Positions 2,036 to 30,936 of a stretch of 64,000 bases of DNA are shown here, piece after piece. The DNA is from Thermosipho africanus Ob7 (lineage in GTDB: Bacteria; Thermotogota; Thermotogae; Thermotogales; Fervidobacteriaceae): contig NZ_NKRG01000001.1 in assembly GCF_003351105.1 (NCBI RefSeq), positions 372,001 through 436,000 on the forward strand. The letters run 5' to 3'. Position 1 is the first letter of the stretch. Each line of letters begins with the position of its first letter. The translations under genes and the position numbers were made by a program. The notes below the pieces were generated by a model. That model was not told the origin of the DNA and ran no database searches. It saw only the letters and a program-made list of their open reading frames with translations.

Positions 2036-2130
2036 AAATTTTTAAGAATAATGGAGGTTAATATTTCTTTCATTATTTTAGATAGTGATATATAATAAGA
2101 GTAGAAATAAAAATAAAGGAGGAGTTGGAC

Positions 2131-3266
2131 TTGTTAGAATCACTAATGGCTTTTTTCAAAGTACGGCGTTTATGAATTTAACGATTGGTAATATAGTTAT
2201 GTTTGCTGTTGCTGGCGTTTTAATATACATAGCAATAGCAAAAGATGCTGAACCATTGTTATTAATACCTATAGCTTTTGGAATTATTCTTGCAAATGTA
2301 CCTCCTGATGTGACTGGTATTTTAAATCCTCCTACAGAAACTTCACCTGGTGGTGTGCTCTGGTATTTGCAACAGGGCTTGGTCCTGGGAATTTACCCTC
2401 CATTGATATTTTTAGGTATAGGTGCATTAACAGACTTTTCATTTATGCTTTCTTATCCAATTACAATTTTCCTTGGTGGAGCGGCACAGATGGGGATATT
2501 TATAACATTTCTTTTAGCTAAATTTTTTGGTTTTAGTCTAAAGCAAGCTGCTTCAATAGGGATTATAGGTGGGGCAGATGGACCTACCTCAATATATATT
2601 ACTTCTAAATTTGCACCAGAACTATTATCAATAATTGCAATTTCGGCATATTCATATATAGCACTAATTCCTGTCTTACAACCTATGGTTTCAAAAATGC
2701 TTACAACCAAGGAAGAAAGAAGAATAAGAATGAAACCACCTAGAAAAGTAACAAAAACTGAAAGGGTACTATTTCCAATTGTAACAACTATAATAGTTGC
2801 TTTGATAATTCCAAAATCGTTGCCATTGATAGGAATGCTTATGTTTGGAAATCTTTTAAGAGAGGCTGGAGTTGTTAAGAGGTTAGTTGAAGCTGCAAGT
2901 AGGTATATTTTAGACACAGTAACAATTTTATTGTGTGTTTCAGTTGGTGCATCTGCAAGAGCGGATATTTTCTTAACACCTAAATCTCTTTTAGTATTTG
3001 GAATGGGTGCGGTAGCATTTGTTACTGCAATAACTTTTGGAATTTTATTTGCAAAATTGATGAACCTGTTCTTGAAAGATAAAATAAATCCATTAATTGG
3101 TGCAGCGGGAGTATCCGCGGTTCCAGATTCTGCAAGGGTTGCGCAAAGAATTGCACAAGAAGAAGATCCAACAAACTTTATTTTAATGCATGCAATGAGC
3201 CCAAATGTTGCTGGTGTTATTGGTTCAGCTGTTGCCGCAGGAATATTCTTATCATTAATTAAGTGA
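2131..3266 (+). CDS. oadB: Sodium-translocating decarboxylase beta subunit, frameshifted near 5' end
   Basis: Integral membrane subunit of biotin-dependent Na+-pumping decarboxylases (oxaloacetate, methylmalonyl-CoA or glutaconyl-CoA); it decarboxylates carboxybiotin and exports sodium. Family marks are IIGGADGPTSIYI, GASARADIFL and HAMSPNVAGVIGSA, with about ten hydrophobic segments. The natural start is TTG 2131 behind AAAGGAGGAG (2116-2124), reading M-LESLMAFF as in relatives, but that frame stops after 14 codons. The rest of the protein is one frame back (-1), continuing QSTAFMNLTIGN and intact to 3266. The switch point is T-TTT-TTC (2151-2157). An unbroken alternative would start at ATG 2172, or at GTG 2085 without a ribosome binding site. 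The 2-oxoacid oxidoreductase genes follow within 12 bases. Confidence 0.8.
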
Positions 3267-3277
3267 GGTGGTTTTAG

Positions 3278-3505
3278 ATGGCAAAAAGAAGTTTTAGAGT
3301 AGATATAAATTATGATTGGTGTAAAAGCTGTGGGATTTGTTATCATACGTGTCCAACAAAAACTATCAAGGAGGGAGAACTTAAAAGACCGGTAGTTGAA
3401 GATCATTCTACCTGTATTGGCTGTCTTATATGTGAAAATTTGTGTCCAGATTTTGCTATAAACATTGTAGATATAACTGAAAAAGTAGGTGAAAAAAATG
3501 GGTAA
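3278..3505 (+). CDS. korD: 2-oxoacid:ferredoxin oxidoreductase, delta (2x[4Fe-4S]) subunit
   Basis: 75-residue bacterial-type ferredoxin with two CxxCxxCxxxCP clusters (Cys15/18/21/25 and Cys46/49/52/56). As the delta subunit it would carry electrons between the thiamine-diphosphate centre of a 2-oxoacid oxidoreductase and free ferredoxin. The identification rests on the cysteine spacing together with the directly following alpha subunit, which it overlaps by 8 bases. GAGGTGG lies 7 bases before the ATG. The beta (TPP-binding) and gamma subunits are not present in the window. Confidence 0.85.
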   Translation: MAKRSFRVDINYDWCKSCGICYHTCPTKTIKEGELKRPVVEDHSTCIGCLICENLCPDFAINIVDITEKVGEKNG

Positions 3506-4658
3506 ACTTGTTTTTTGGCAAGGAAACGAAGCTGCAGCCTATGGGGCTTTAAAGGCAGGATGTAGATTTTACGCAGGATATCCTATAACCCCATCTTCAG
3601 AAATTGCAGAAACCATGGCAAGAGAGCTTCCAAAAGTAAATGGTGTCTTTATACAGATGGAAGATGAAATAGGGAGTGCAGCAGCTATAATAGGTGCTTC
3701 TCTTGCTGGTGTAAAATCAATGACTGCAACAAGTGGGCCGGGTTTTAGCTTAATGCAAGAAGCATTAGGATACGCAATAATGACTGAAACGCCTTGTGTA
3801 TTTGTAAATGTGATGAGGGGAGGACCTTCAACAGGTTTACCAACTAAACCTGCTCAAGGCGATATAATGCAGGCAAGATGGGGAACTCACGGGGACCATG
3901 CCATAATAGCTTTGTATCCTTCAACTGTTGAAGAGGTATATAGATATATGATAGAAGCATTTAATTTAGCTGAAATATATAGAACTCCAGTAGTATTTTT
4001 GATGGATGAAACACTTGGTCATATGAGAGAAGCTTTTGAGTTGCCTGATTTAAAGAATGTTGAGATTGTAAATAGAATTTCTGAAAAAGAACTAGAGGAA
4101 GAAGAAATATTTGTTCCATATGTTGAAAGTGAATATGCAGAGCCAAAACCAACTGCATTAGTTGAAATGGGAAAAACAAGATTCCATGTTTCGGGCCTTG
4201 TCCACGATGAATCAGGTTTTCCAAATGCAGCATATGAAACAGCAGAAAAACTTATTAAGAGATTATCTAACAAAATAAAGTTACATATTGATGAAATCTC
4301 AATATATGATGAATATTTAACAGAAGATGCAGAAGTTTTGGTAATTGCATATGGAATAGTTGCAAGAAGCGCAAAAGAAGCAGTGAAAATTGCAAGAAAT
4401 GATAAGATGAGAGTAGGGTTGTTTAAACCAATAACAATATGGCCGCTTCCAGTTCACGAACTTAGAAAAAGGCTTTCAAAAGTTGAAGCTGTAGTAATTC
4501 CAGAAATGAATTTGGGACAATATGGAAGGGAAATTTTAAGATTGGTAAAACCAGGAACGAAAGTTAAATTTATTAATAAAGTAGGTGGAGAATTAATTAC
4601 ACCTGAAGAAATACTTGATGGAATTAATGAAATTCTAACAGAAGGATATGATTACTAG
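3498..4658 (+). CDS. korA: 2-oxoacid:ferredoxin oxidoreductase, alpha subunit
   Basis: 386 residues of the pyrimidine-binding and transketolase C-terminal-like domains of the ferredoxin-dependent 2-oxoacid oxidoreductases. Diagnostic stretches are YPITPSSEIAE near residue 28, ATSGPGFSLMQE, and RGGPSTGLPTKPAQGD, the last being typical of the 2-oxoglutarate (KorA) type. It would help form or cleave acyl-CoA, for example succinyl-CoA from 2-oxoglutarate. ATG 3498 is preferred over GTG 3489 because AGGTG lies 7 bases upstream. A strong terminator follows directly, so no beta or gamma subunit is co-transcribed; the holoenzyme needs partners encoded elsewhere. Substrate assignment is tentative. Confidence 0.8.
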   Translation: MGKLVFWQGNEAAAYGALKAGCRFYAGYPITPSSEIAETMARELPKVNGVFIQMEDEIGSAAAIIGASLAGVKSMTATSGPGFSLMQEALGYAIMTETPCVFVNVMRGGPSTGLPTKPAQGDIMQARWGTHGDHAIIALYPSTVEEVYRYMIEAFNLAEIYRTPVVFLMDETLGHMREAFELPDLKNVEIVNRISEKELEEEEIFVPYVESEYAEPKPTALVEMGKTRFHVSGLVHDESGFPNAAYETAEKLIKRLSNKIKLHIDEISIYDEYLTEDAEVLVIAYGIVARSAKEAVKIARNDKMRVGLFKPITIWPLPVHELRKRLSKVEAVVIPEMNLGQYGREILRLVKPGTKVKFINKVGGELITPEEILDGINEILTEGYDY

Positions 4659-20481: not shown

Positions 20482-21168
20482 TCATTTGCTAGAAATTTTT
20501 TCTTTTATTAACTCTGCTAACTTTCTTGCGGAATGATCATTAAAATGTACACCATCAATTGTAGTAACAAGATTTCTTTTTTTGCTGACAATATTTGAAA
20601 TTTTTGGAGATCTAACAAAAATAGAATCAAGTACCATTTTAAATGGCTTTTTGGAAATAAAATATTTATTTGAATTAGTTTTTAATTGAGATTTTTGCCA
20701 AGAATTGAAGTCAACTAATTTAAACGGGTAATCTTTACATAATTTATGAATTATTTTATTGTATTCATCAACTTTTTTGTTTAACTCATTATTTAAATTT
20801 TCTCCTATACATGGTATATTTATGATTAAAACGTTTTTATCCACCAAAAGTTCTAATAAGTTTTTATAGTTTTTTTCAAATTCTTCGATGTTTTTTGAGG
20901 GAATTCTTCCTGAAGCAATAATCTTTTTAACTGTTTTTTGCCATTCTGGTGAGTAGTTATATAAGAATGGCAAAAGTATATCATTAGTTCCAATTTCTAT
21001 TATGATATTTTCTACAGTTTGACTATTTAGAAAATTTTTTAGTCTATTGTATAGACCAAGAGTGGTATCCCCGCCTTTTCCATAATTAAGAAATTCTTTT
21101 CCTAAATATTTTACGTATGACACTCCTGGTATTCCTTCTGTTATGCTGTCACCAAAACAGTAGTACAT
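20482..21168 (-). CDS. SGNH/GDSL-family hydrolase
   Basis: 228 residues. Block I CFGDSITEG carries the nucleophilic serine, block II is YGKGGDTTLG, block III EIGTNDILLP, and block V DGVHFNDHSARKLAELI holds the Asp and His. No signal peptide is seen, so it is probably cytoplasmic. Such enzymes are esterases, lysophospholipases or deacetylases. It lies 36 bases after the aminotransferase gene at the end of the lysine operon. A deacylase at this point is suggestive because the acetyl-DAP route needs a deacetylase, but that step is normally done by M20 enzymes, so this is weak. Confidence 0.8.
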   Translation of the reverse strand: MYYCFGDSITEGIPGVSYVKYLGKEFLNYGKGGDTTLGLYNRLKNFLNSQTVENIIIEIGTNDILLPFLYNYSPEWQKTVKKIIASGRIPSKNIEEFEKNYKNLLELLVDKNVLIINIPCIGENLNNELNKKVDEYNKIIHKLCKDYPFKLVDFNSWQKSQLKTNSNKYFISKKPFKMVLDSIFVRSPKISNIVSKKRNLVTTIDGVHFNDHSARKLAELIKEKISSK

Positions 21169-28900: not shown

Positions 28901-29743
28901 TTACCCCTCCAATAATTCTTCTATATATTTAGCAACGAAAATCCCCATATTATTTAATTTGTTTTCTTTATACTCTATTGAACCTTCATAGCCTTCGATA
29001 ATAGCACCTGCATGTCCCATTCTTTTGCCTTTTGGAGCAGTTCTTCCGGCAAAAAAAGACCTGTATATTAGCATTATAACCTTTTTTTAGAAATTTTTCT
29101 ATACCTATTATTTCATCATTACCGCCTATTTCACTGATGATAACAATTTTTCTTGGATTTAAATGCGTAACAAATTCTAAAGCTTCATCTATTGAAATTC
29201 CAATTATTGGATCACCGCCTAATCCAATTGCAATTTTAATACCAGTGGATTTTTTTGAAAGGTAATTGGATACTTCGTACATTAGAGTACCACTTTTTGA
29301 AATAATTGCTATATCTCCAGGTTTGAAATCTGATGATGGCATTATTCCAATTTTACTTACTCCTGGAAGAATAATTCCTGGACAATTTGGACCTACAAAT
29401 GTTATATTTTTCTCTTTTACTTTTTTATATATTTCGATCATATCGTGAATTGGAATGTGCTCAGTTATTGTGATGATTTTTTTAATTCCTGAATCAATGG
29501 CTTCAAATATAGCACTTTTAGCATAAAGGGTCGGAACAAAAACCACGCTAGTATCACATTTATATTTTTTTACAGCTTCGAACATGTTATCAAAAACAGG
29601 AATATTTTCAATATTTGTTACTTTATTGTTTTTTGAAACTCCACAAACTATATTTGTTCCATATTCAATCATTTTTTTGTGTGAAATTTACCATATTTTC
29701 CAGTAATACCTTGAGCACAGACTTTTTCATTTCCATTAATCAT
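28901..29743 (-). pseudogene. sucD: Succinyl-CoA synthetase alpha subunit, broken by two frameshifts
   Basis: The gene can be read from ATG 29743 (MINGNEKVCAQGITGKYG, with AAGGGGAAG upstream) to TAA 28901, in three frames. The first break is in an A7 run near 29684, where the N-terminal frame stops; the middle part 29672-29070 reads EYGTNIVCGVSK to NIQVFF; the second break is in a T7 run near 29063, after which AGRTAPKGKRMGHAGAIIEG continues to the family C-terminus. The second shift separates the phosphohistidine (in GHAGAI) from the rest. Total length fits a normal alpha subunit of about 280 residues. One-base slips in homopolymers could be phase variation or sequencing error, but the neighbouring sucC is damaged more deeply. 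Confidence 0.85.
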
Positions 29744-29754
29744 GATACTTCCCC

Positions 29755-30707
29755 TTATTGCAATTTAATCATCTCGTACATATCATCAAAATAAGCTATG
29801 TTATTTTCATCTAATATTCGTTTGGCTTCGTTTTCATTGGGTCCGGTAATTCTTACAAGTATAGGAACATTTTTATTTTCGTTTTTGAATTTTACGATTG
29901 CTTTTGCTATTTCGTCGCATTTTGTAATACAACCAAATATATTCATTATGATTTTTATACATTTAGTGATTTTAGTGATCTCATTGCTTCTAAAGTTATA
30001 TTTGAATTTGCTCCACCACCAAGATCCAAAAAGTTGGCAGGTTTTCCACAATATAGATTTACTGCATCCATTGTTGCCATAACTATTCCAGCTCCACAAC
30101 CGATACTGCCAATATCACCATCTAATTTTACAAAATGAAATGGATATTAATCATTTACAAATTCTTGAGCCCATTTTTGTCTAAATAATGCATTGTCATC
30201 AAGATGCATTACACAATCAAGCGCGATTAACTTGCCATTTTCATCTTCTGCAAGAAGATTAATTTCAAGAAGAGTCAATTCTTTTTCAATAAATAATTTA
30301 TATAGCTAATAACAATATCGTGAAATTTATCAGGCAGCTTTTTATAATCATTTATGTTTAGATTTAAAATATTATTTTTATTGTTTTCAATTTCTATACC
30401 ACCACTTTCTGAGAAAAGAATTTTTATATCTGTTTAATATTTATTTTTTCTTCAACAAGAATTGCATAAGGTTTTTCACCATGGATATCTTTTTCTAATA
30501 GATTTTATGTATTGGTGAAAAATTCGTCTTTTGTGTTTGCAAATTTCCACCTGCTTTCATTCTGCTTTCAACAAGGACTTGACTTTTTAAAACTGCTGGA
30601 AGAAATTTTACTTGTAGACTGTCTGAGTTTTTAATTACATAGCCATTTGGTGTTTCAATCCCTGCTTCTTTTAAAAGTTTTTTACCAACAAACTCATGAA
30701 TTTTCAC
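29755..30707 (-). pseudogene. sucC: Succinyl-CoA synthetase beta subunit, multiply frameshifted
   Basis: Starts at GTG 30707 behind GGAGGTGAG with IHEFVGKKLLKEAGI and VLKSQVLVESRMKAGG (ATP-grasp), and ends at TAA 29755 with VPILVRITGPNENEAK. Between them at least five shifts are needed: after KAGG, after INIKQ, after ISYI, after QEFVND and after SLKSLNV. Recognisable pieces are [63 protein letters not shown] and [17 protein letters not shown]. The span (953 bases) is short for a beta subunit of about 380 residues, with sequence missing around INIKQ, so real deletion has occurred. No full-length product can be made. Confidence 0.88.
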
Positions 30708-30730
30708 TATCTCACCTCCAAAGTATTGAA

Positions 30731-30766
30731 TAAAAAATTTTTCTCAATCTTCCCTCGAGATTGAGA
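30731..30766 (-). terminator. Intrinsic terminator of the cobalamin riboswitch
   Basis: Nine-base perfect stem TCTCAATCT / AGATTGAGA (30742-30766) with a seven-base loop, followed on the minus strand by AAAAATTTTTT, 24 bases ahead of the sucC start. Confidence 0.85.
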
Positions 30767-30777
30767 AACGTTTTGAA

Positions 30778-30936
30778 ATAAAGGCAGGTCTCCTGGCTTC
30801 CGAATCATCCTACTCTCCACGCCTTCCCAGGAATACTTCCCAGTGGCATACTGTGGATTTCGTCCTCGGTTACAGTGGCGGGGCCGCGCTGGATTTTCAC
30901 CAGCTTCCCTTTTAAGCCAAATAGGCACCTTTATTC
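30778..30936 (-). ncRNA. Cobalamin (B12) riboswitch aptamer
   Basis: Minus-strand sequence contains all core elements of the class: GGTGCC near the 5' end, AAAAGGGAAGCTGGTGAAAATC, GCGGCCCCGCCACTGTAACC, ATGCCACTGGGA and the terminal B12 box GAAGCCAGGAGACCTGCC. P1 pairs AATAAAGG with CCTTTATT. It is followed by an intrinsic terminator and then by sucC, sucD and the transporter gene. The usual logic is that adenosylcobalamin binding stops transcription. No B12 synthesis or uptake gene lies downstream, which is the common target of such switches. Confidence 0.95.

Follow-up and report, generated by a model that had tools for sequence, protein, structure and literature searches.

Programmed -1 ribosomal frameshifting, as in dnaX and the IS3-family elements, is among the described systems closest to a gene changing frame at a run of T, with an in-phase X_XXY_YYZ heptamer placed at the junction of the two frames. 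In an E. coli study, heptamers that lack a stimulator exceeded the background shifting of ~0.05% by no more than about ten-fold (PMC4066793). A frame change at such a run can also arise in sequencing, as the errors of the Ion Torrent PGM mostly concern homopolymer length, with deletions dominating in longer runs (PMC3623719). The genome of Thermosipho africanus Ob7 (NKRG00000000; 23 contigs, 1,933,435 bp) was sequenced with Ion Torrent only (PMC6211235, Table 1) and assembled with Newbler 2.6 (PMC6211235), making it a product of error-prone, flow-based sequencing. Here, we analyze oadB of this strain, in which the reading frame changes at a T run shortly after the start codon, and find that this is most likely not a new case of ribosomal frameshifting. 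The window is the whole stretch of 64,000 nucleotides that was analyzed (G000:C1:372001-436000, where G000 denotes the Ob7 genome), and positions refer to it unless given with genome and contig.

The oadB gene and its frame junction

The product of oadB is the beta subunit of a sodium-translocating decarboxylase, with a whole-model match to TIGR01109 (E 1.8e-154, 514 bits) that exceeds the family cut-off of 190.6 bits and begins only at about codon 2187. The protein is present in 59 of the 61 genomes searched, while in Ob7 the gene is single, with no second copy in the genome able to cover for it. It is followed at 3278-4658 by genes for a ferredoxin-type subunit and the alpha subunit of a 2-oxoacid:ferredoxin oxidoreductase, then by a gene on the opposite strand; no beta or gamma subunit gene lies directly after them. 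The parts of oadB are as follows.

2115-2122, plus strand: ribosome-binding site AAAGGAGG, 8 nt 5′ of TTG 2131 (sequence)
2131-2175, plus strand: 5′ part of oadB as deposited, with TTG start, 14 codons and TGA (translation)
2151-2157, plus strand: run of six T and a C (T_TTT_TTC), being seven T and a C in the nearest relative (sequence, alignment)
2154-3266, plus strand: rest of oadB in the -1 frame, uninterrupted until the stop (open reading frame, family match)
2172-2175, plus strand: ATGA, an in-frame ATG overlapping the TGA of the first frame, with the same in-frame ATG in the nearest relative (sequence)

The initial annotation placed the start at TTG 2131, with a strong ribosome site and the family N-terminus, and the comparison with homologues agrees: GGAGG is found at the equivalent position in the relatives, and the family N-terminus, here split over the two frames, is the one that the nearest relative (G001, a member of the genus whose protein is 98% and whose DNA is about 95% identical) reads straight through in a single frame as LLESLMAFFQSTAFMNLS. 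The early stop and the continuation one frame back that it described are likewise present. The frame opened by TTG 2131 reads MLESLMAFFKVRRL, its translation being given as LLESLMAFFKVRRL, and ends at the TGA at 2173-2175. The T tract occupies 2151-2156 and is followed by C 2157 in the phase GCT TTT TTC, and conserved OadB sequence resumes at this tract, with the -1 frame reading FQSTAFMNLTIGN... up to the stop that ends at 3266. Because this -1 frame is uninterrupted from GTG 2085 through 3266, a start at GTG 2085 would give a single-frame ORF of 393 aa; this start was rejected, as its leader MIYNKSRNKNKGGVGLVRITNG does not match the family N-terminus, whereas the frame of TTG 2131 does.

The T run in relatives and homopolymer breaks in the assembly

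The 364 aa read from ATG 2172 are 98% identical to those of G001, whose gene begins TTG TTA GAA TCA CTA ATG GCT TTT TTT CAA AGT ACG GCG TTT ATG, with seven T. In the alignment of the two genes exactly one T is absent from the Ob7 copy, and oadB is otherwise free of gaps. The N-termini of two further relatives, LLESLLSFFQSTAFMH (G002) and LLESFLAFFQSTAFMH (G003), are also read in a single frame at this site, and the frame change is conserved in none of the inspected homologues. In a genome of the same order, an oadB relative is split in two frames near residues 87-115 (G024:C1:942556-943610, a one-contig genome), a position distant from the T-run site. Between Ob7 and G001, oadB has a dN/dS of 0.051, and the ferredoxin and 2-oxoacid oxidoreductase alpha genes downstream have values of 0.048 and 0.024; oadB was therefore a constrained gene until the change in the T run. 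On this value and the absence of other lesions, an old pseudogene was rejected.

The frequency of such breaks was assessed by a census, in which stretches of contig C1 (472 kb) were set against their collinear counterparts in G001, giving 441,526 aligned columns. Within these 441 kb, one-base homopolymer indels break seven genes in G000 and one in G001.

TPR protein: A5 to A6 in G000 (name from sequence reading)
ABC permease: A7 to A8 in G000 (name from sequence reading)
792-aa protein: A8 to A9 in G000
M42-type peptidase: T8 to T9 in G000 (name from sequence reading)
KaiC-like ATPase: T7 to T8 in G000 (name from sequence reading)
sucD: T8 to T7 in G000
oadB: T7 to T6 in G000
SGNH-type hydrolase: the single break in G001, T9 versus T7

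The five genes in which an A or T run is one base longer than in G001 (G000:C1:30828, 180546, 207236, 236382 and 452099, all outside the window) are probably assembly errors. The SGNH-hydrolase-like ORF (20482-21168, minus strand) is intact here with T7 and shifted in G001 by T9 and a second one-base change; it matched no family at the chosen cut-off. Also outside the window, at G000:C1:456645, a 4-nt insertion repeating TAAG cuts a gene that encodes 271 aa in the relative to 222 aa and, not being in a homopolymer, is probably a real mutation. The census lends some support, short of proof, to a technical origin of the oadB change.

An undercalled run or a real deletion

The frame change in oadB is most likely a homopolymer undercall, the missing T being an error rather than a real deletion. 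The gene would then be an ordinary oadB, whose true sequence would have seven T and be read without a change of frame between TTG 2131 and the stop at 3266, and the six T deposited would reflect an undercall in a genome sequenced with Ion Torrent and assembled with Newbler. This reading is favored because G001 has GCT TTT TTT CAA in a single frame, because the one T is absent from a gene otherwise without gaps or lesions and under strong constraint, because Ob7 was sequenced on a platform whose errors mostly concern homopolymer length, because homopolymer breaks affect seven genes here and one in G001, and because oadB is single-copy. One suggestion of the initial annotation, that a run of seven T had become one shorter either in the genome itself or during assembly, is supported by the exact T7 of G001 and by the other one-base homopolymer breaks of the assembly. 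Several observations count against an undercall: the asymmetry of the census is modest (7/8, one-sided P 0.035), five of the seven G000 breaks are insertions, opposite to undercalling, and errors are not frequent, given that in the first 188 kb 169 of the 173 coding runs of seven match G001. In addition, the neighboring sucC-sucD locus looks like a case of real gene loss in the lineage.

That locus (succinate-CoA ligase; 28986-30900, minus strand) is degraded here, while in G001 both frames are open, over 339 and 281 aa. In sucC there are single-base indels and, away from homopolymers, deletions of 40 nt and 4 nt, and dN/dS between the two genomes is 0.88 for the C-terminal part of sucC and 0.30 for sucD. 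With deletions outside homopolymers and relaxed selection, sucC-sucD looks genuinely decayed, with the features of a true pseudogene and of gene loss in the strain. It had been proposed that the slips in oadB and sucD share a cause. The sucD slip is real (T7 here at 29679, T8 in the relative) and for this T8 to T7 change a common cause is possible, but it does not extend to the larger deletions and relaxed selection of the locus.

The runner-up is a real and recent one-base deletion in the strain, which we consider unlikely. T runs are natural hot spots of mutation, and the apparently true degradation of sucC-sucD in the same window is in line with such an event; the strong purifying selection on oadB, the lack of any further lesion and the occurrence of the same type of break in several other intact-looking genes of this Ion Torrent assembly argue against it. 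If the deletion were real, oadB would be lost, or a low-level product lacking the first 14 residues would be made with ATG 2172 as its start, perhaps through ribosomes that terminate at the ATGA overlap and begin again there. The ATGA at 2172-2175 is a possible restart site in that case, and the family model matches only downstream of it, but no ribosome-binding site was found in the sequence 5′ of ATG 2172.

The slippery heptamer and proposed recoding

It is highly improbable that the run in Ob7 really is six T long and that full-length OadB arises by ribosomal or transcriptional slippage seven codons in, rescuing a recent deletion; the trans-frame peptide would be ESLMAFFQSTAF..., and neither form of slippage has support other than a motif that arises from the deletion. 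Programmed -1 ribosomal frameshifting at T_TTT_TTC as the source of full-length OadB, raised by the initial annotation, is less probable still. In its favor, a heptamer in canonical phase (2151-2157) sits at the junction. However, loss of one T from GCT TTT TTT CAA necessarily yields a phased T_TTT_TTC with the remainder one frame back, so that the heptamer, its phase and the exact junction are a single observation rather than three. A canonical-looking slippery heptamer appears by itself whenever a T7 in the given phase drops one T, as would happen in about half of the T7 runs in ORFs of the contig (54/105). The motif itself is unremarkable and adds little as evidence, with 17 in-phase occurrences of T_TTT_TTC in the 442 ORFs of the contig, and with TTTTTTC present 104 times in the window when both strands are counted, against an average of 83 in shuffles. 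In two relatives (L023 and L024) the same GCT TTT TTC stands at this site and is read in frame 0, followed in L023 by AAA exactly as in this genome, which, with the single-frame homologues, speaks against programmed slippage. A downstream stimulatory hairpin, for which the initial annotation had suggested looking, was not found: the 73 nt of RNA at 2158-2230 have a folding energy of -8.7 kcal/mol against a mean of -12.2 for shuffled sequences (z +1.28), with 186 of the 200 shuffles folding better, and no SD-like stimulator was found between the start and the T run. Motifs without a stimulator shift only slightly above background in E. coli, as described above. Programmed frameshifting is rejected on the relatives, the folding and the motif statistics together.

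Transcriptional slippage on the T run, restoring the frame in some oadB mRNA, is comparably improbable: RNA polymerase slippage on A/T runs occurs in other bacteria, e.g., at Thermus dnaX, but six bases are a short run for efficient slippage, the deletion would have to be real to begin with, and the arrangement is absent from relatives.

Were programmed slippage true, a subunit of a membrane decarboxylase would be made by recoding, a case without precedent in a literature search for frameshifting together with oxaloacetate decarboxylase. With an undercalled run as the preferred reading, the frame change has little biological import, and homopolymer frame changes in the Ob7 assembly should not be counted as recoding.

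Set beside the known systems, the locus shares with dnaX and the IS3-family elements the in-phase X_XXY_YYZ heptamer at the junction, and differs from them in having no conserved frame change, stimulatory structure or internal SD at the usual distance. Compared with the OadB family (TIGR01109/PF03977), the deposited gene lacks one T in codon 8-9, which places its N-terminus out of frame with the rest, whereas the N-terminus, the start and the ribosome-binding site are the same as in Thermosipho homologues. It departs from Ion Torrent PGM undercalling (PMC3623719) in that most other homopolymer breaks in this contig are insertions, and resembles it in that a seven-base A/T run is one base short in an assembly built from Ion Torrent data alone, with further homopolymer breaks nearby.
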